Part shown: positions 415 to 12,505 of the stretch, in pieces | How positions within the stretch are numbered: position 1 is the first letter of the stretch | How the letters are laid out: every line of letters starts with the position of its first letter | Source: Nitrospinaceae bacterium | GTDB lineage: Bacteria > Nitrospinota > Nitrospinia > Nitrospinales > VA-1 | Assembly: GCA_029261515.1 (NCBI GenBank) | Contig: JAJDBE010000121.1 | Span: 1 to 38,114 of the forward strand | Length of the DNA stretch: 38,114 bases | Reading direction: 5' to 3' | Program-made: the position numbers and the translations under genes | Notes under the pieces: generated by a model | The model's input: only the letters and a program-made list of their open reading frames with translations | Databases searched by the model: none | Told to the model about the DNA's origin: nothing

Positions 415-669
415 ATTTCCTTCCTCTCAACCAAAAAATTCTCAAAGAGAAAGATTAAAATTTAAAACAGCCGGCAGGGAGGGCGGTCCGAATGAAATAT
501 AAGGAACCGTGGAAAAACCTTACGTGGAATTCGAGCGAGGCCGGCGTTAAATAGAGAGAAAAACGGCAGAAACCAGGGGATAAAGTTGGAACCGTTCCAG
601 TTGGCATGCGCCCAAAAAGGGTCAGCTGGCGCAGAGGCGGAAACAGAAAACTCGCCCTCCGCGAAAGAG
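415..669. other. Intergenic spacer with several potential hairpins
   Basis: No protein gene is seen here. The first 50 bases are AT-rich. From about 461 the sequence becomes G+C-rich and holds several complementary pairs: GCCGGC at 470-475 and 540-545, CGGTCC 484-489 with GGAACCG 503-509 (one bulge), CCAGTTG 597-603 with CAGCTGG 623-629, and GAGGCG 634-639 with CGCCCTC 653-659 (one bulge). This could be a structured RNA or only compositional noise. It does not match tmRNA, RNase P, SRP or 6S RNA as I remember their conserved cores. Confidence 0.3.
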
Positions 670-743
670 TGGCGGTGCAGGGACTTGAACCCCGGACACT
701 ACGGATATGAACCGTATGCTCTAACCAGCTGAGCTACACCGCC
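670..743 (-). tRNA. tRNA-Met (anticodon CAU)
   Basis: Read on the minus strand the 74 bases fold as a complete cloverleaf: 7-bp acceptor stem GGCGGTG/CACCGCC, D arm GCTC/GAGC, anticodon stem TACGG/CCGTA with loop TTCATAT (anticodon CAT), variable loop GTGTC, and T arm CGGGG-TTCAAGT-CCCTG, with discriminator A. The first pair is G-C, so it is not an initiator tRNA, which has a mismatch there. It is either elongator Met or the Ile2 tRNA whose C34 is modified by TilS; the overall sequence resembles elongator Met. CCA is not encoded: the bases after the discriminator read CTC, so CCA must be added enzymatically. Confidence 0.95.
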
Positions 744-2624: not shown

Positions 2625-3161
2625 ATGGAAGACACGATACGATTCGAAGAAGGAAAATTCTGTCCGGTAAAAATCGAGGGAGAAGGCGGCGGCCTGTCCT
2701 TCTCACCCAACGGGGACATGCTGTTGATCGGGCGGTTCCCCAGCCCCTCCAAGGCGCAGATCGAAGCCTGGGATGGCAAATGGCGGGCCAAGCTGTGTGC
2801 CGAGTCGGAGTTTCCCTCCATCCCCATATTCGCGGTGGGAAGTGAGGACTGGATTCTCGAAACCCCCTGTAACCCGGCTCAGCAGGAAAAGGAAGCGCCG
2901 GGATTCATAGAAGCGATGTTCGGAAAGGACGATTCGGAAATGGTGGCGGTACTGGTCGATTCCCTGACCAATATGATCGTCAAGATCAAACGCGTACCGC
3001 TGGACGAGATGTTCGTCGAGCGGTTAGCATTAAGCTGGAATCCCTACCGCGGCCCTGCGGATCAATACAACAAAACCTTCAGCGACGAGGAGTTCGCCAG
3101 CCGGATCAATTCCATCTTTAAAATGAAATCGCAAAAGGAAATCTGGATGACTTCGTGGTAG
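2625..3161 (+). CDS. Hypothetical protein, 178 aa
   Basis: I do not recognise a family. The protein is probably soluble: there is no signal peptide or membrane segment. It is rich in acidic residues and aromatics, with a PSPSKAQIEAW segment near residue 39 and a C-terminus ending QKEIWMTSW. The ATG at 2625 follows a weak purine-poor leader. The gene is interesting because its last 22 codons recur, diverged, at 3755-3820 after the next gene, so the gene once had a tandem or recombined second copy. The conserved tail, with changes mostly acceptable at the protein level, suggests the reading frame is a real, translated gene. Confidence 0.75.
   Translation: MEDTIRFEEGKFCPVKIEGEGGGLSFSPNGDMLLIGRFPSPSKAQIEAWDGKWRAKLCAESEFPSIPIFAVGSEDWILETPCNPAQQEKEAPGFIEAMFGKDDSEMVAVLVDSLTNMIVKIKRVPLDEMFVERLALSWNPYRGPADQYNKTFSDEEFASRINSIFKMKSQKEIWMTSW
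3096..3161 (+). repeat. Direct repeat, copy 1 (intact gene 3' end)
   Basis: This is the last 66 bases of the 178-aa gene. They match 3755-3820 in register. The final 48 bases (3114-3161 against 3773-3820) differ at only two positions, both third codon positions, while the first 18 bases are more diverged. Sequences beyond the stop codons of the two copies are unrelated. Confidence 0.9.
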
Positions 3162-3245
3162 TTGCAATTTCAATCGTAAAGTCCTGTTCTTATATTGAAA
3201 TCAACCGAACAAAGGTAAGTAAACAACTAAGATGCAGGTAACTTT

Positions 3246-3755
3246 ATGAAAAAGATAATTTCGCTACTCTTTATTCTCATTTTGGCGTCTGGCCTTATTT
3301 TGTGGACGCAAGGAAATTCCATGCGAGAAATTAAAACCGAAATTGAAATAGCGGCTCCACCCACAAAAGTGTGGAGCATCCTCACTGATTTTGATAACTG
3401 GAAGGAATGGAGTCCCATCATCAATCAGGCAAGTGGAGTCGCTTCTCTTGGGTCTGAGTTGAGCATAATGATGCGTGGCGAAGATGGCAAAGACGGACCG
3501 AAATATGCGCCTGTCATAACAAGCTTCGATGAACCAAAGTTTTTTCGTTGGCGGGGCAAAATGATGGCCGAATTTATAATGACCAACGACAAAGTCTTCG
3601 AACTTGAAGAAACAGCTTCCGGCACCCGGTTAATTCATAAAGAATTGTTCAGTGGAATGCTCGTGCCTGTCTTTTGGAATAAATTTGAAAAACACGTCCC
3701 ATCAATGTTGAATTCGATGAACGAGGCCTTGAAAACAAAAGCTGAGAAAAGTTAG
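3246..3755 (+). CDS. SRPBCC/START-like exported or membrane-anchored protein
   Basis: The N-terminus MKKIISLLFILILASGLIL is a signal peptide or membrane anchor. From about residue 28 the pattern EIKTEIEIAAPPTKVWSIL, then TDFDNWKEWSPII, is the classic start of the SRPBCC (polyketide cyclase/dehydrase, START-like) fold, which makes a deep hydrophobic pocket for lipids or aromatics. The rest (FRWRGKM, GTRLIHKELF, MNEALK at the C-terminal helix) fits the family over its usual length of about 140 residues. AGGTAAC precedes the ATG. The ligand is unknown. It is more AT-rich than the upstream gene, and it lies exactly between an intact 178-aa gene and the 3' remnant of a related copy, so it probably arrived by insertion or recombination. 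Confidence 0.85.
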   Translation: MKKIISLLFILILASGLILWTQGNSMREIKTEIEIAAPPTKVWSILTDFDNWKEWSPIINQASGVASLGSELSIMMRGEDGKDGPKYAPVITSFDEPKFFRWRGKMMAEFIMTNDKVFELEETASGTRLIHKELFSGMLVPVFWNKFEKHVPSMLNSMNEALKTKAEKS

Positions 3756-3820
3756 TCAGCCGTGTCCACTGTATCTTCAAAATAAAATCGCAAAAGGAAA
3801 TCTGGATGACTTCGTGGTAG
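3755..3820 (+). pseudogene. 3' remnant (22 codons) of a paralogue of the 178-aa gene
   Basis: Read from 3755 the sequence encodes VSRVHCIFKIKSQKEIWMTSW and a stop. The intact gene ends ASRINSIFKMKSQKEIWMTSW. Homology begins at the last base of the SRPBCC stop codon and ends at the remnant's own stop codon. Several differences in the first eight codons are conservative amino-acid changes, and the two in the last 16 codons are at third positions, so this was once a separately evolving coding copy rather than a fresh duplication. No start codon or ribosome-binding site serves it now. Confidence 0.8.
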
Positions 3821-3886: not shown

Positions 3887-5146
3887 TCAAGTTTTCCCAC
3901 AAATTGCAATGGTATGCTGAAACTTGGCCTTTTCGTCACTCTTGGACGATTCCAATTTCAAATAATCCCATAAGCTATATAATAAACTTGTATATCCAAC
4001 GACTTTTAATCGAGCAAAAAAATCTTCCATCTGTAAAGAGGTACTACATGCAACCAATGTTCCCACAGTAAATGTCTTTGCCCCCGACTCACAAGCTTTA
4101 AGAAATTTGTTTTTGTTAAATTTCAACATTAGAGCTTTTTGCTCATTAAGAACCTCTTCTCTTAAAATTCGAAAAGCCTCATTTCCTCGGTCCATTCGAT
4201 CCTTTGGCAATGCTGTAATTCTTTCTAACGCACTTCTTAAGGTTTTTCTCCAATCTTCAAATATTTCCTCATTAATCCGTAAAGAGACTAAATCTTTTGG
4301 ATCCAAACCCATCAGACCGGGAATCTCCACCTGAACAAGTTCTCGAAGGTGTGTTAAAGGAGTTTCAGGCACTTCTTTAAGCTCTACTGGTTGCAAAATC
4401 TGAGACAATACTTCTCTATAGCATTCAAAAGGCAGATAAAAATCCACACCACCATTTATTTTGGAATTGACTACGCTAACACTCTCAATAACTTTATGAA
4501 CTACATTAAGAATAACTTGTCGAGATAATAAATCATCTTGAAAGTTCTTATTATAACTTTTCGCAACTATGACAAAATCATCGAAACAATTGGATTCAGC
4601 CAATAACTCAATTTTATTTTTTTTTGAATCAGATGTATTCTGATCTTTTCTGGCATCGATATATGCCATTTTACTCACCAAGACAAGAACACCCGAGTCA
4701 ATCAATGGACGCAAATGGTAAAGAAAAGCTAAATAGTTTATTAGTTCTTGTTTGCATCGCTCAAATAGTTGATCAAGAGTATCAGTTCGAAAAACATCTA
4801 GAAAGTATGCCCCCGGATCGTCAATAGCAACCGAATGGCAATAAAGGAGTCGCTGTGTTAGATTATCAACAATTTGCCAAATTCCATTCTGATCTCGAAA
4901 GTTACTACTACGAATTGCAATTCCTCCTACTGCCCAATTAACATAATTATGATTCGCGGGGAAATAAGGACGGAGTTCATTTTGTTTTCGATCCGGGGCT
5001 TCAAATTCATACTCTTTTTCCCATTTCCTATAACTTTCTGATAGGTCAGCAAGTTCGATACGAGAAGCAGTTCTTACTTTTTCAATAAGGTCGGGTGAAA
5101 GCTCCATTCCAAATAATCTCTCAATTTCAGGAATAAAATTCCTCAT
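3887..5146 (-). CDS. AT-rich hypothetical protein, 419 aa
   Basis: I do not recognise a family. The protein appears soluble and mostly helical, without a signal peptide; a weakly hydrophobic stretch lies near residues 140-165 (INYLAFLYHLRPL, SGVLVLVSKMAY). Cysteines are few and there is no nuclease, NTPase or protease motif I can identify. The gene is markedly more AT-rich than all its neighbours: the row 4501-4560 has 14 G+C of 60, while the adjoining LRR gene has 32 of 60 in 5161-5220. That points to recent acquisition. Its start is well defined: AGGAG lies 6 bases before the ATG and overlaps the LRR gene's stop codon, so it should be translated with that gene. The size range and composition would fit an accessory or defence gene, but this is only a guess. 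Confidence 0.8.
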   Translation of the reverse strand: MRNFIPEIERLFGMELSPDLIEKVRTASRIELADLSESYRKWEKEYEFEAPDRKQNELRPYFPANHNYVNWAVGGIAIRSSNFRDQNGIWQIVDNLTQRLLYCHSVAIDDPGAYFLDVFRTDTLDQLFERCKQELINYLAFLYHLRPLIDSGVLVLVSKMAYIDARKDQNTSDSKKNKIELLAESNCFDDFVIVAKSYNKNFQDDLLSRQVILNVVHKVIESVSVVNSKINGGVDFYLPFECYREVLSQILQPVELKEVPETPLTHLRELVQVEIPGLMGLDPKDLVSLRINEEIFEDWRKTLRSALERITALPKDRMDRGNEAFRILREEVLNEQKALMLKFNKNKFLKACESGAKTFTVGTLVACSTSLQMEDFFARLKVVGYTSLLYSLWDYLKLESSKSDEKAKFQHTIAICGKT

Positions 5147-5152
5147 AAAATT

Positions 5153-5157
5153 CTCCT
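5153..5157 (-). promoter_or_regulatory. Ribosome-binding site AGGAG overlapping the LRR stop codon
   Basis: On the minus strand the stop TAG of the LRR gene (5156-5158) shares its last two bases with AGGAG. Six bases separate this site from the ATG of the AT-rich gene at 5146. It fixes that start and makes translational coupling likely. Confidence 0.75.
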
Positions 5158-6346
5158 ACTTCTCATACTCGGCGTCGTCTAGGTCTTCCTCCTCTTCCAC
5201 TTCGACGATTTCCTCGACCTCTTCAAATTCTTCCTCGTCCTCTTCGTCCTCGACTTCGATTTCCTCGCGCTCGAATTCGGGGTATTCCAACTTGGTGAGA
5301 AATTCGGAATCGCCCAGAGCGTAATAGCCATCGTCGGTGTAGGCGTTGCCTTCGATGTAGAGACGCACCAGGTTGCTCATGTTCTCCGATTCGGCAACGG
5401 CGATCAAACCTTCATCTGTGACGAGGCAATGCTCGATCATCAGGTTCTGCAAGGCTGGCAAGGTTTCCGATGCGGCGATGAACTTGAGGCCTTCGTCCTT
5501 GATGGGGTTGCGGTCCAGTGACAACAACACCAGGTTTTTGAGATAGGGGGATTCGGCCAGGGCGCGGACGCCTTCTGCGGTGATCTTGTTCAATTCCAGG
5601 TACAGGTGGGTGAGGTTTTCCAAATCTTCGCAATGGGCGACGGCCCTGCACTCCAGATCGCCGATGCCGATCTTGCTGAGATCGAGAATGGTTTTGTCCT
5701 CATTCAGTTTATGACGAATGCGGTTGATGACGAGGAATTCCGACAGGGCGCTTTTCCCCACTTCGGTCACCGGGTTGTCGGAAATATCGACCGATTGCAA
5801 GTTGGGGTATTCCCGGCTTTTGGCAAATTCGAGCGCCCCGGCGTCGGTGATGCCGTTTTTTCTCACATCCAGATATTCGAGATTCTCAAGCTCCTTGGTG
5901 TGGGCCAGGTGTTTGATGCCATCATCGCCGATCTTGTTTTCCGCCAGACTTAAGCTCGTAAGGGCTTTGAAGTTTTTCGATTCCGCGACATACCGCGCAC
6001 CTTCCGGGCCGATCTCGTTCCACGCCAACCGTAACGATGTCAGGCTGGGAAATTTCTCCGAATCGCACAGGTACTTGACGCCCTCGTCGCCGATTTTATT
6101 CTTGTAGAGTTTGAGCGATTGCAGGTTGCCTAAAAACTCGGAACCTGCCAGGGCTTTGGGAGATTCGGGTCCCAGTTTGTTGCCACTCAAGGTCAGCCGC
6201 GTTATCTGTTTGATGGATTTGGATTTTGCCAGCTCCTGAACCCCGGAATCCCCCAATTTGACAAAATTGAAATCGAGGATTTCATAGTCCCGGCTCAGTT
6301 TGAAGCCGTTGCGGATGATCCCCTCGATGTTGTAAAACTTCTTCAT
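5156..6346 (-). CDS. Leucine-rich-repeat protein (RNase-inhibitor type) with acidic tail
   Basis: Residues about 20-345 are ten or more repeats of roughly 27 residues with the pattern L-x-x-L-x-L-x-x-N-x-I-x-D-E-G-h-x-x-L-A-E-S, for example NKIGDEGVKYL and NKITAEGVRALAESP. This is the RNase-inhibitor-like LRR class, a curved solenoid used for protein binding. From about 350 to the end (396) the protein is almost only Glu, Asp and Val, a strongly acidic low-complexity tail. There is no signal peptide, so it is probably cytoplasmic. GAGGAAT precedes the ATG. LRRs of this class are commoner in eukaryotes but occur in Planctomycetes and other environmental bacteria. Partner and function are unknown. 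The AT-rich gene follows 9 bases downstream. Confidence 0.88.
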   Translation of the reverse strand: MKKFYNIEGIIRNGFKLSRDYEILDFNFVKLGDSGVQELAKSKSIKQITRLTLSGNKLGPESPKALAGSEFLGNLQSLKLYKNKIGDEGVKYLCDSEKFPSLTSLRLAWNEIGPEGARYVAESKNFKALTSLSLAENKIGDDGIKHLAHTKELENLEYLDVRKNGITDAGALEFAKSREYPNLQSVDISDNPVTEVGKSALSEFLVINRIRHKLNEDKTILDLSKIGIGDLECRAVAHCEDLENLTHLYLELNKITAEGVRALAESPYLKNLVLLSLDRNPIKDEGLKFIAASETLPALQNLMIEHCLVTDEGLIAVAESENMSNLVRLYIEGNAYTDDGYYALGDSEFLTKLEYPEFEREEIEVEDEEDEEEFEEVEEIVEVEEEEDLDDAEYEK

Positions 6347-9712: not shown

Positions 9713-9735
9713 TTGTTTTAGAAAAAAGTTTCGAA

Positions 9736-9770
9736 GGGCTTATGGGGAAAACCCATAAGCCCTTTTTCTT
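9736..9770 (+). terminator. Rho-independent terminator of aconitase gene
   Basis: A perfect 11-bp stem (GGGCTTATGGG at 9736-9746 with CCCATAAGCCC at 9752-9762) encloses a 5-base loop and is followed by TTTTTCTT. It lies 24 bases after the aconitase stop and separates that gene from msrAB. Confidence 0.93.
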
Positions 9771-9989
9771 TGCAGTAGCCCTCCGCTTGATTTGCCCGCA
9801 AAATCGACTCAAAATCCCACCCTTTGGCCGAAAAAAACTCCAATTATTAATTATTTTTAATGTTCCCTTTGGGCCAATTAACCGTCTGTAAGCAATTCCC
9901 GGTTTCTTCGACTTTACCAGCGAATTGCGATGCGTTAATCTAGATAATCATCCGCGCAACTAACAGGCGTTTCATTAAGGAGAAGGAAA

Positions 9990-11123
9990 ATGATTAAGCG
10001 CTATTTACCCTGTTTAATAGTTTTTAGTTTTCTGGCGCTCATTCTGGTGAAGGTCAACGCGTCCTCGATGAATGAAAGCCGGAGCCAAAATACAGAAGCA
10101 AAAATGAGCGGCCAAAGTGCAATCGCCACCTTCGCCGGGGGATGCTTCTGGTGTATGGAACCTCCGTTTGAAAAGCTGGCCGGTGTGAAAAAAGTCGTTT
10201 CAGGATATACCGGGGGGCAAACAGCCAATCCGACTTATGAAGATGTCTCTTACGGTTCTACCGGGCATGTCGAAGCCGTGCAGATTCACTACAATCCAGA
10301 TCAGATTTCCTATAAGGATCTGCTGGAAGTTTTTTGGAGGAACATCGATCCTACAGATGCTGGCGGGCAGTTTGTCGACCGGGGCCATTCTTACATCACC
10401 GGGATTTTCGTTCACAATGAAGAACAACGAAAGCTGGCCGAAGCATCCAAGGCAGAGCTTGAAAAAAGCAAACGCTTCGACAAAAAAATTGTCACTATGA
10501 TCTCTGAGGCAAAAGAATACTATAATGCCGAAGAGTATCATCAGGATTATTACAAAAAGAACCCGGTGCGGTATAAATTTTACCGGCACCGATCAGGCCG
10601 GGATCAATTCATTGATAAACATTGGGGAAAGGAGCGGGAATACATGCCTATCAACGCATCCATGCAGGAAAGCAACGACAACTTTTCCAAACCCTCGGAT
10701 AGCGAACTGAAAGAAAAGTTGACGGCAATTCAATATAAAGTGACGCAAAAGGATGGTACGGAACCGCCATTTCAGAATGAATTTTGGGACAACAAAAAAG
10801 CCGGGATTTATGTGGACATCGTTTCCGGAGAAGCCTTGTTCAGTTCTAAGGACAAATTCGATTCGAAAACGGGGTGGCCGTCGTTTACCCGGCCTCTGGT
10901 CGAGGAAAACATTGTGACTCATACCGACAAGAGTTTTTTCATGGTCCGAACCGAGGTCCGGTCCAAACAGGGAGATTCTCACCTGGGACATATATTTAAA
11001 GACGGGCCGCAGCCAACGGGATTGCGTTATTGCATCAATTCCGCCTCGTTGCGCTTCATCCCTGCGGAAAAACTCAAAGAAGAAGGTTATGGGCAATTCA
11101 TTTCCCTGTTCCAAAAAGCTTAA
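9990..11123 (+). CDS. msrAB: Peptide-methionine sulfoxide reductase MsrA-MsrB fusion, exported
   Basis: The protein repairs oxidised methionine with both stereospecificities. Residues 1-25 are a signal peptide or membrane anchor, placing it in the periplasm. MsrA spans about 45-200 with catalytic Cys52 in [11 protein letters not shown], plus the GYTGG and GHVEAV motifs; it reduces Met-S-sulfoxide. MsrB spans about 235-370 with GWPSF, HLGHIF and catalytic Cys348 in RYCINSASL; it reduces Met-R-sulfoxide. The four zinc-binding cysteines of many MsrB proteins are absent, as in other A-B fusions. A strong AAGGAGAAGG site precedes the ATG. No thioredoxin-like domain is fused, so the electron donor must come from elsewhere. 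The next gene starts 13 bases downstream. Confidence 0.96.
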
Positions 11124-11136
11124 AGGAGCTTGAAAT

Positions 11137-11970
11137 TTGATTTTCCGTTTCCGTCTGAATTGCACGTTGTCATTATTTTTATCTCTGTTTTATTTGTTGA
11201 CGCCGGGTTTTGCCTGGTCTGGGAATGCGGACGCAGGAGCCGCTAAACCTCCTGAAGGAATGGCATTCATCCCTGCGGGAGAATCGCTCCTGGGTTTCGA
11301 CCCGGACCAGGCTTACCGGCAATGCCTCAAGAATAATGACACCTGCAAGAAAAACTGGTTTCTCGATGAGGGGCCTGTCCATTCGGCGCAATTGGACGGT
11401 TTTTTTATCGATACCCATGAGGTAACGCAAAAAGAGTTTGCACGCATCATGGAGAAAAACCCTTCCGAATATACTGGAGCCGATCTTCCCGTAGAAAATG
11501 TCACCTGGCATGAAGCGAAGGACTATTGCCAGCGCCTGGGCAAACGCCTGCCCACTGAAGCGGAGTGGGAACGAGCTGCTAAAGGCGGAAAGGACTCGGT
11601 TTTTCCCTGGGGAGACGAGGTGAAATCAGGAAAAGCCAATTTCTGTGATACGCATTGCGATAAGCGATGGAAGGAAAATCACTTTGATGATGGTCACCGC
11701 TATACGGCTCCCGTGGGCAGTTTCCCGCCAAATGAATACGGACTTTATGATACCGCCGGAAATGTGTATGAATGGGTGATGGATTGGTATGAGGAAGATT
11801 ACTACACTAAAAAGCCGCGAAAAAACCCGAGAGGCCCTGACAACGGAAAGCTAAAAGTGATCCGCGGCGGATCATGGATCAACTATTCCGTTGGTGTCCG
11901 GCCTTCCGACCGCACCGACGCCAACCCCTCCAAGCGATTAAATTTCCTGGGGTTTCGCTGTGCCTTGTAA
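11137..11970 (+). CDS. Exported SUMF/FGE-fold protein (catalytic cysteines absent)
   Basis: Signal peptide about 1-27, then a formylglycine-generating-enzyme/SUMF fold (PF03781-type): MAFIPAGESLLGFDP, DEGPVHSAQLDGFFID, HEVTQKEFA, NVTWHEAKDYCQRLGKR, LPTEAEWERAAKG, YDTAGNVYEWVMDWY, KVIRGGSW and the terminal LGFRCAL. After RGGSW, where active FGE carries its two cysteines, the sequence is INYSVGVRPSDR with none. It therefore cannot make formylglycine in the known way and is more likely a binding or accessory member of the fold. The start is TTG, set by AAAGGAG in the spacer; no ATG exists in a suitable place. It forms a tight pair with msrAB, so a role in envelope oxidative repair is an inference from context. 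Confidence 0.88.
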   Translation: MIFRFRLNCTLSLFLSLFYLLTPGFAWSGNADAGAAKPPEGMAFIPAGESLLGFDPDQAYRQCLKNNDTCKKNWFLDEGPVHSAQLDGFFIDTHEVTQKEFARIMEKNPSEYTGADLPVENVTWHEAKDYCQRLGKRLPTEAEWERAAKGGKDSVFPWGDEVKSGKANFCDTHCDKRWKENHFDDGHRYTAPVGSFPPNEYGLYDTAGNVYEWVMDWYEEDYYTKKPRKNPRGPDNGKLKVIRGGSWINYSVGVRPSDRTDANPSKRLNFLGFRCAL

Positions 11971-12015
11971 ATTTCCAAACGGATATCATTAAGAACCCGC
12001 TTCCTGCCACGTGGC

Positions 12016-12225
12016 CTAATCGCCTTCCCACAGGCTTCTCAACCGTAATTCTTGTTCGATCGAAGACAGTTTTTTCCTGATCGTGTCTATTTTATTGTGA
12101 TTGGAAGCGTTGTTCTTTTCTATGCCGGCTTTCAACAGCTTTTCTGTCGCATCGAATAAACTCAACAGATCCTCATCGTCAAGATCTTCTAGATTCTGGG
12201 CACCCATAAGTTCGACATTCAACAA
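12016..12225 (-). CDS. Small acidic helical protein, 69 aa
   Basis: I do not recognise it. The sequence is predicted helical and probably amphipathic, with an acidic first half (NLEDLDDEDLLSLFD) and a mixed-charge second half ending RLRSLWEGD. There is no signal peptide or cysteine. No clear ribosome-binding site precedes the ATG at 12225; a second ATG six codons in (12207) is no better placed. It is the last open frame of the minus-strand envelope set and lies 55 bases after the SH3 mini-gene. Its protein-like composition supports it, but it could be a chance frame. Confidence 0.5.
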   Translation of the reverse strand: MLNVELMGAQNLEDLDDEDLLSLFDATEKLLKAGIEKNNASNHNKIDTIRKKLSSIEQELRLRSLWEGD

Positions 12226-12280
12226 AAGGTTATGAGGTTAAAACGAGGCACTTTGGTGAAAATTTATTGCCCGTCACGAT

Positions 12281-12496
12281 TTAACTAAAAGTTGGTTTTT
12301 GGCCTGTCAATCCCGGAATATCGACGGGGAGATGAAGCCACCCTTTTTTCTTGCCATTCCTCCAGGTGATCTGAATCCACTCGCCTTTTCTCTTCAACGG
12401 GTGAACCTTCGTCCCGCGATTCAAACGGTTGCAAACTTCTCCCCCTTCTTTAAGATAAACATACTGCGTTTTTTCTAATGTAATAACTCTTTCCAT
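12281..12496 (-). CDS. Small SH3-like domain protein, 71 aa
   Basis: The whole protein resembles one bacterial SH3 domain (SH3b): TQYVYLKEGGEVCNRLNRGTK, then KVHPLKRKGEWIQITWRNGKK and KGWLHLPVD, the usual order of small beta strands ending in the GW-L pattern. SH3b domains often bind peptidoglycan peptides or proteins, but this one lacks a signal peptide, so a cytoplasmic role is possible. It begins 9 bases after the stop of the M48 protease gene, which suggests co-translation; no good ribosome-binding site of its own is visible. Confidence 0.68.
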   Translation of the reverse strand: MERVITLEKTQYVYLKEGGEVCNRLNRGTKVHPLKRKGEWIQITWRNGKKKGWLHLPVDIPGLTGQKPTFS

Positions 12497-12505
12497 AAAA
12501 AAAAG

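Follow-up and report, generated by a model that had tools for sequence, protein, structure and literature searches.

A probably displaced gene tail beside a small foreign gene in a Nitrospinaceae genome, and similar layouts at toxin loci of Nitrospinota

Results

The stretch of DNA analysed here (the window; 38,114 nucleotides from a Nitrospinaceae bacterium, genome G000) carries an intact gene of unknown function that encodes 178 amino acids (positions 2625 to 3161, forward strand) and belongs to no family in Pfam, NCBIfam or PADLOC. The gene is conserved in Nitrospinales, with homologues of 60-83% amino acid identity in 41 of the 60 relatives compared, always as one copy; the sole extra match in these genomes stops at a contig edge. 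The 60 relatives all lie outside the source genus, so that an empty allele of the same species is not among them. Named records that match the gene come from Nitrospinaceae or Nitrospina, plus one titled KSB1. Its upstream neighbour in the relatives is an MBL-fold gene, and its downstream neighbour, in contigs long enough to include it, is usually a convergent leucine-rich-repeat (LRR) gene.

An AT-rich spacer (3162 to 3245; 32% GC) leads from the stop of the 178-aa gene to an SRPBCC gene of the polyketide cyclase 2 type (3246 to 3755, forward strand), which encodes 169 amino acids as called and matches PF10604 (Polyketide_cyc2) with 53.7 bits (E 3.6e-14; gathering cut-off 27.4). An alternative start is likely at the ATG at 3321, preceded by AAGGAAA, because a homologue of 61% identity begins there. 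Beyond this gene lie 22 codons with a stop and no gene body attached (3755 to 3820, forward strand), an orphan gene of 419 amino acids (3887 to 5146, reverse strand), and the LRR gene (5156 to 6346, reverse strand), whose conservation in relatives marks it as the right border of a variable gap. Two further features lie upstream of the 178-aa gene: an imperfect palindrome at approximately 2366-2450 (GTCATGCTGAGCTTGTCGAAG ... CTTCGACAGGCTCAGAATGAC), which resembles a REP-type element, and a tRNA-Met gene at 669-743 (reverse strand), beyond the MBL gene.

The bodiless 22 codons are a 3' remnant of the 178-aa gene. They match the last approximately 22 codons of the intact gene (3096 to 3161, forward strand; reading GCCAGCCGGATCAATTCC...) at 57 of 66 bases and begin on the final base of the SRPBCC stop codon (TAG, 3753-3755), exactly where an earlier note on this DNA had placed them. 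The similarity extends upstream to 3750, giving a match of 71 nt at 86%, and the final 36 nt of both tails, stop included, are identical; this exact 36-mer has two occurrences in the window and is absent from shuffled sequences. When the tail was searched against its own genome just two places matched (E 1.2e-16 for the copy). Among the 60 relatives the remnant DNA has no match other than the terminal part of the 178-aa gene, the tail is single-copy, a second copy being present only in the window's genome, and viral contigs contain no exact copy of the 36-mer. An origin of the tail as a dispersed or widespread unrelated repeat was therefore discarded, as no copy was found away from the 178-aa gene in the own genome, the relatives or the viral contigs.

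The two tails differ at 10 positions over the 71-nt match, 6 of them third codon positions. The earlier note had described the differences as mainly conservative or third-position, which needs correcting in that the amino acid changes in 6 of the 8 codons affected (within the 66 nt, 5 of 7: A-V, I-V, N-H, S-C and M-I). Its view that each of the tails was shaped by evolution as coding sequence is supported. All 9 differences within the 66 nt are confined to the first 30 nt, a clustering with a chance of 0.0004 if differences were evenly spread and of about 0.002 given the real variability of the region.

The coding character of this divergence is what would be expected if two tandem 178-aa paralogues had once been present and the body of the second had been lost to the SRPBCC gene, as the note had proposed. 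We found no tandem arrangement and no second full copy in the 41 genomes that carry the gene, and unrelated genes show the same layout, each with its own tail (see below), which together make this origin very improbable. Even less probable is an artefact of metagenome binning in which strain variants of the gene end were joined in one contig: the assembly does consist of 308 contigs with 3.5% contamination, but the contig spans both copies with unique sequence between them, and the layout also appears in several other assemblies, including a genome in a single contig (G037).

Both genes between the 178-aa gene and the LRR gene are low in GC and outlying in codon use. The SRPBCC gene has a GC content of 42% and, in the comparison with its neighbours, a codon score of -0.037, against 0.005-0.166 for resident genes; the 419-aa orphan, a second foreign gene of the gap, has 36% GC and a score of -0.174, occurs in this genome only among 77 genomes of the phylum, and matches no Pfam family above cut-off and nothing in PADLOC or NCBIfam. 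The nearest homologue of the SRPBCC gene (61%; genome G016) sits at an unrelated locus with no tail beside it, so that movement of the SRPBCC gene together with the 178-aa gene was rejected; nor did any of the 60 relatives carry the 66-base tail behind an SRPBCC gene in a place lacking the 178-aa gene. PADLOC and NCBIfam profiles gave no support for a known toxin or defence gene, the Rv0910-type toxin model NF047960 scoring 27.9 bits against an equivalog cut-off of 100. The segment 3162-3754 holds just the SRPBCC gene and encodes no recombinase or integrase. These data support the SRPBCC gene as foreign cargo at a variable site beside a conserved gene end.

The variability of this site became evident from the gene order conserved among relatives, which runs MBL(-), 178(+), LRR(-), hydrolase(-), aconitase(+), M48(-), TPR(-), with convergent gaps between 178 and LRR and between aconitase and M48. 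The 178/LRR gap is often only 12-60 bp long in relatives and exceeds 500 bp in 11 of 34 genomes; the aconitase/M48 gap does so in 11 of 22, as compared with 2 of 119 divergent and tandem gaps of the same block (both convergent gaps pooled, Fisher P 7e-11). The cargo varies by genome and includes (named by eye from the sequences) a TPR protein, ParD/RelE pairs, a PIN-like protein, a large NTPase-like protein, and CBS-type, cold-shock-type and other proteins. The idea of a gene-capture site is thus borne out by a gap that is filled in about a third of the genomes, with contents differing between them. Other cargo enclosed by the 178-aa gene and a remnant of it was not encountered, the other occupied gaps having no copy of the 178-aa tail, and we therefore rejected this tail as a required attachment site. 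Because the second convergent gap behaves likewise, it is convergence, and not the tail sequence, that marks the site. In the window this second gap (9713-12505, between the aconitase and M48 peptidase genes) holds a methionine sulfoxide reductase gene and an FGE-sulfatase-like gene, and no copy of the tail was found in it.

We searched elsewhere in the phylum for the same layout, namely a gene followed by a small cargo and then by a second copy of the gene's own 3' tail up to the stop codon. One scan for such downstream tail copies was applied to 70 ParE/RelE loci (0.29 Mb; best-scoring matches rather than a random sample) and to a background of 1.02 Mb with 1083 ORFs sampled from three genomes. 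The layout is present at 7-8 of the 70 toxin loci: six clear cases came from the tail scan (G016, G018, G055, G007, G037 and G047), and further ones from a repeat scan (G042) and from direct comparison (G046, an 18-nt remnant). Low-identity tail matches at two loci (L096 and L124), a third locus (L166), and a ParD/ParE pair whose flanking repeats lie inside an ORF (L129) were left out of this count. In the background the only high-identity match was the window itself, accompanied by two matches at 59-65%.

The target genes of these cases are diverse, including a 134-aa gene (G042 and G046), a radical-SAM-like gene (G016) and a YidC-like gene (G037). The cassettes contain toxin-antitoxin pairs, joined in G007 and G042 by a few more small genes, and the remnants measure 18 to 145 nt. 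In most cases cargo and gene are co-oriented, about 50 bases at most separate the toxin stop from the remnant, and the sequences diverge right past the stop codon of the gene (about 11 bases later in G055). G047 differs in that the cargo is reversed and the repeat, 100% identical, continues beyond the stop. Checking both borders of every occupied gap revealed a mirror image of the window in the same 178/LRR gap of G018, where the last 78-79 nt of the LRR gene are duplicated, at 98.7% identity, beyond a ParD/RelE pair.

Several observations lie beside this series. In G018 the excluded L129 locus has a 78-bp repeat (1992-2069 and 3055-3132; 90%) around its ParD/ParE pair, whose toxin frame runs into another gene; this looks like an insertion within a gene. 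G016 and G024 (L178 and L179) share a toxin-antitoxin type that follows one and the same radical-SAM-like gene, with a tail remnant in the former and other downstream repeats in the latter.

The differences between paired tails bear on how the repeats arose. A staggered break in the last approximately 70 bp of the gene, repaired so that the tail is duplicated, with the copies drifting apart afterwards, is the main rival to the import described below, above all for the near-identical repeats of G018 and G047 (the latter running past the stop), which it explains directly. A drifting non-coding remnant, however, should not differ mainly at third positions, and over seven cases the differences fall on the three codon positions as 9:8:43 (P 0.0035 against the 1:1:2 expected of a freely drifting remnant). 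That the copies differ mostly at third positions suggests two alleles rather than a duplication.

Under duplication, sister genomes should likewise not resemble the remnant more than the intact gene. At the 9 differing sites of the window, six sister tails of the g7 type show 22 matches to the remnant against 7 to the intact copy; random change starting from the intact copy would yield such closeness with P 0.0025-0.007, the sister group having been picked after looking. In G042, toxin-less sisters give 7 matches to the remnant and 1 to the intact tail, and the toxin-bearing G046 shares the intact tail of G042 at 37 of 38 bases though its gene is less similar overall. The cassette DNA of these two genomes is more diverged than the gene (79% versus 87% identity), so that this pair does not stem from a recent transfer. 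In G037 sisters favour the remnant at synonymous sites (8 versus 0) and the intact tail at three replacement sites (6 versus 0), the latter being read as decay after the original tail was displaced. From these small counts, the left tail of the window (3096 to 3161) was probably supplied by incoming DNA, with the remnant as the displaced original. Long target duplication is a possible yet rather unlikely account of the window.

Discussion

We favour, with a probability of roughly 0.6, an import that replaced the tail of the gene as the explanation of the window locus. Incoming DNA composed of the 3' tail of a related 178-aa gene and the SRPBCC gene would have recombined with the resident copy of that gene. 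On the left, the join would lie within homologous gene sequence, and the gene would therefore have stayed whole while adopting the imported tail; the right end, just past the SRPBCC stop, would have been joined inside the original tail of the resident gene, thereby stranding its last 22 codons downstream. The right junction (3750 to 3763, forward strand) has AGTT and CAGCCG in common with the gene's own tail in the alignment and is possibly a microhomology join. The likeliest route would be one-sided recombination, anchored by homology at one end and otherwise illegitimate, or integration of a small circle by a single crossover. The 178/LRR convergent gap tolerates imports of this kind, its cargo having differed from genome to genome, and a scar would arise only where the far join falls within the gene, a condition that would agree with the roughly one in ten toxin loci that bear one.

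Several facts count against this import model. The identical last 36 nt require homogenisation or chance; the tail is short, and the assignment of the native copy depends on 9 differing sites; the replacement sites of G037 side with the intact tail; the G042 and G046 cassettes are more diverged than the gene; and the 99-100% identical repeats of G018 and G047 fit simple target duplication equally well. Such insertion with long target duplication was reportedly described by Nobusato et al. in 2000 for restriction-modification genes of Helicobacter pylori. The Helicobacter genes have a similar anatomy, with target duplications of roughly 100 bp and no transposase (PMC3874152, PMC1643837). Common to them and to our cases are the lack of an own transposase and a direct repeat that flanks the cargo and is single-copy in genomes free of the insert. 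Our cases depart from that pattern in their cargo (an SRPBCC gene or toxin-antitoxin pairs), in a repeat that consists of a gene's 3' end and usually ends at its stop, and in copies whose differences are concentrated at third codon positions.

Homology-facilitated illegitimate recombination, in which one end is homologous and the other is joined at microhomology, is known from laboratory transformation. Its expected products are a left tail of imported origin, a right join that is abrupt, and a native remnant whose length varies; its operation at the present loci is something we infer from sequence comparison.

The e14 element in icd of E. coli is an integrase element that replaces the 3' end of a gene and leaves the old tail beyond the insert. 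Like icd, the 178-aa gene is whole; the few informative sites in the window, G042 and G037 suggest that the intact tails may likewise be replacements, with the originals as remnants past the inserts. A small element carrying a replacement 3' end might have integrated there by means of an integrase provided in trans. Besides the apparent tail replacement, the tRNA-Met of this locus, duplicated around a toxin-antitoxin-like pair in G038, speaks for such a process. Unlike e14, our inserts are mostly of about 0.6-0.9 kb, with one or two genes, no integrase and many different target genes; these targets are unrelated and their tails have no evident common core sequence, no cargo shown resembles a recombinase, and remnant length varies from 18 to 145 nt. 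We consider an integrase-type origin unlikely.

The recurrence of the layout points to repeated gene import at gene ends without a dedicated enzyme, and bears on the open question of how lone genes or very small toxin-antitoxin pairs come to be dispersed among chromosomes when no transposase is involved. From a displaced tail one can read in which direction and between which end-points each import took place; with 7-8 of 70 toxin loci showing such a scar, its frequency is measurable and the proposal is open to testing in many genomes. More tentatively, Nitrospinota may harbour recombinase-free mini-cassettes of about 0.6-0.9 kb that move together with the 3' end of the gene they target, mostly as toxin-antitoxin pairs and sometimes as single genes such as the SRPBCC gene; through ordinary homologous recombination between the direct tail repeats they would be able to leave and, in other strains, to enter that gene end again. 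As in known integration hot spots in intergenic gaps, one gap receives different cargo in each lineage; unlike these in general, the variable gaps here lie specifically between convergent genes of one syntenic block. In the open-access literature we came across no account of such gene-tail scars beside inserted toxin-antitoxin pairs.

Among the short direct repeats detected over 1.5 Mb, most were internal to a single protein; others were intergenic repeats (G006) and tRNA ends (G038 and G019), and of the few remaining ones several bracket toxin-antitoxin pairs. In G038 two tRNA-Met copies (179-266 and 1128-1212 of L077) bracket a RelB/RelE-like pair, which has the classic form of an insertion at a tRNA end and belongs to the same neighbourhood as the window locus, and in G019 (L051) there is a 38-nt copy of a tRNA-Met tail. 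The G006 repeats (11020-11954 of L039) are paired, 86-90 bp long and bear inverted ends (TAACAGGTTGCTGAAAAA), and are possibly a miniature transposable element.
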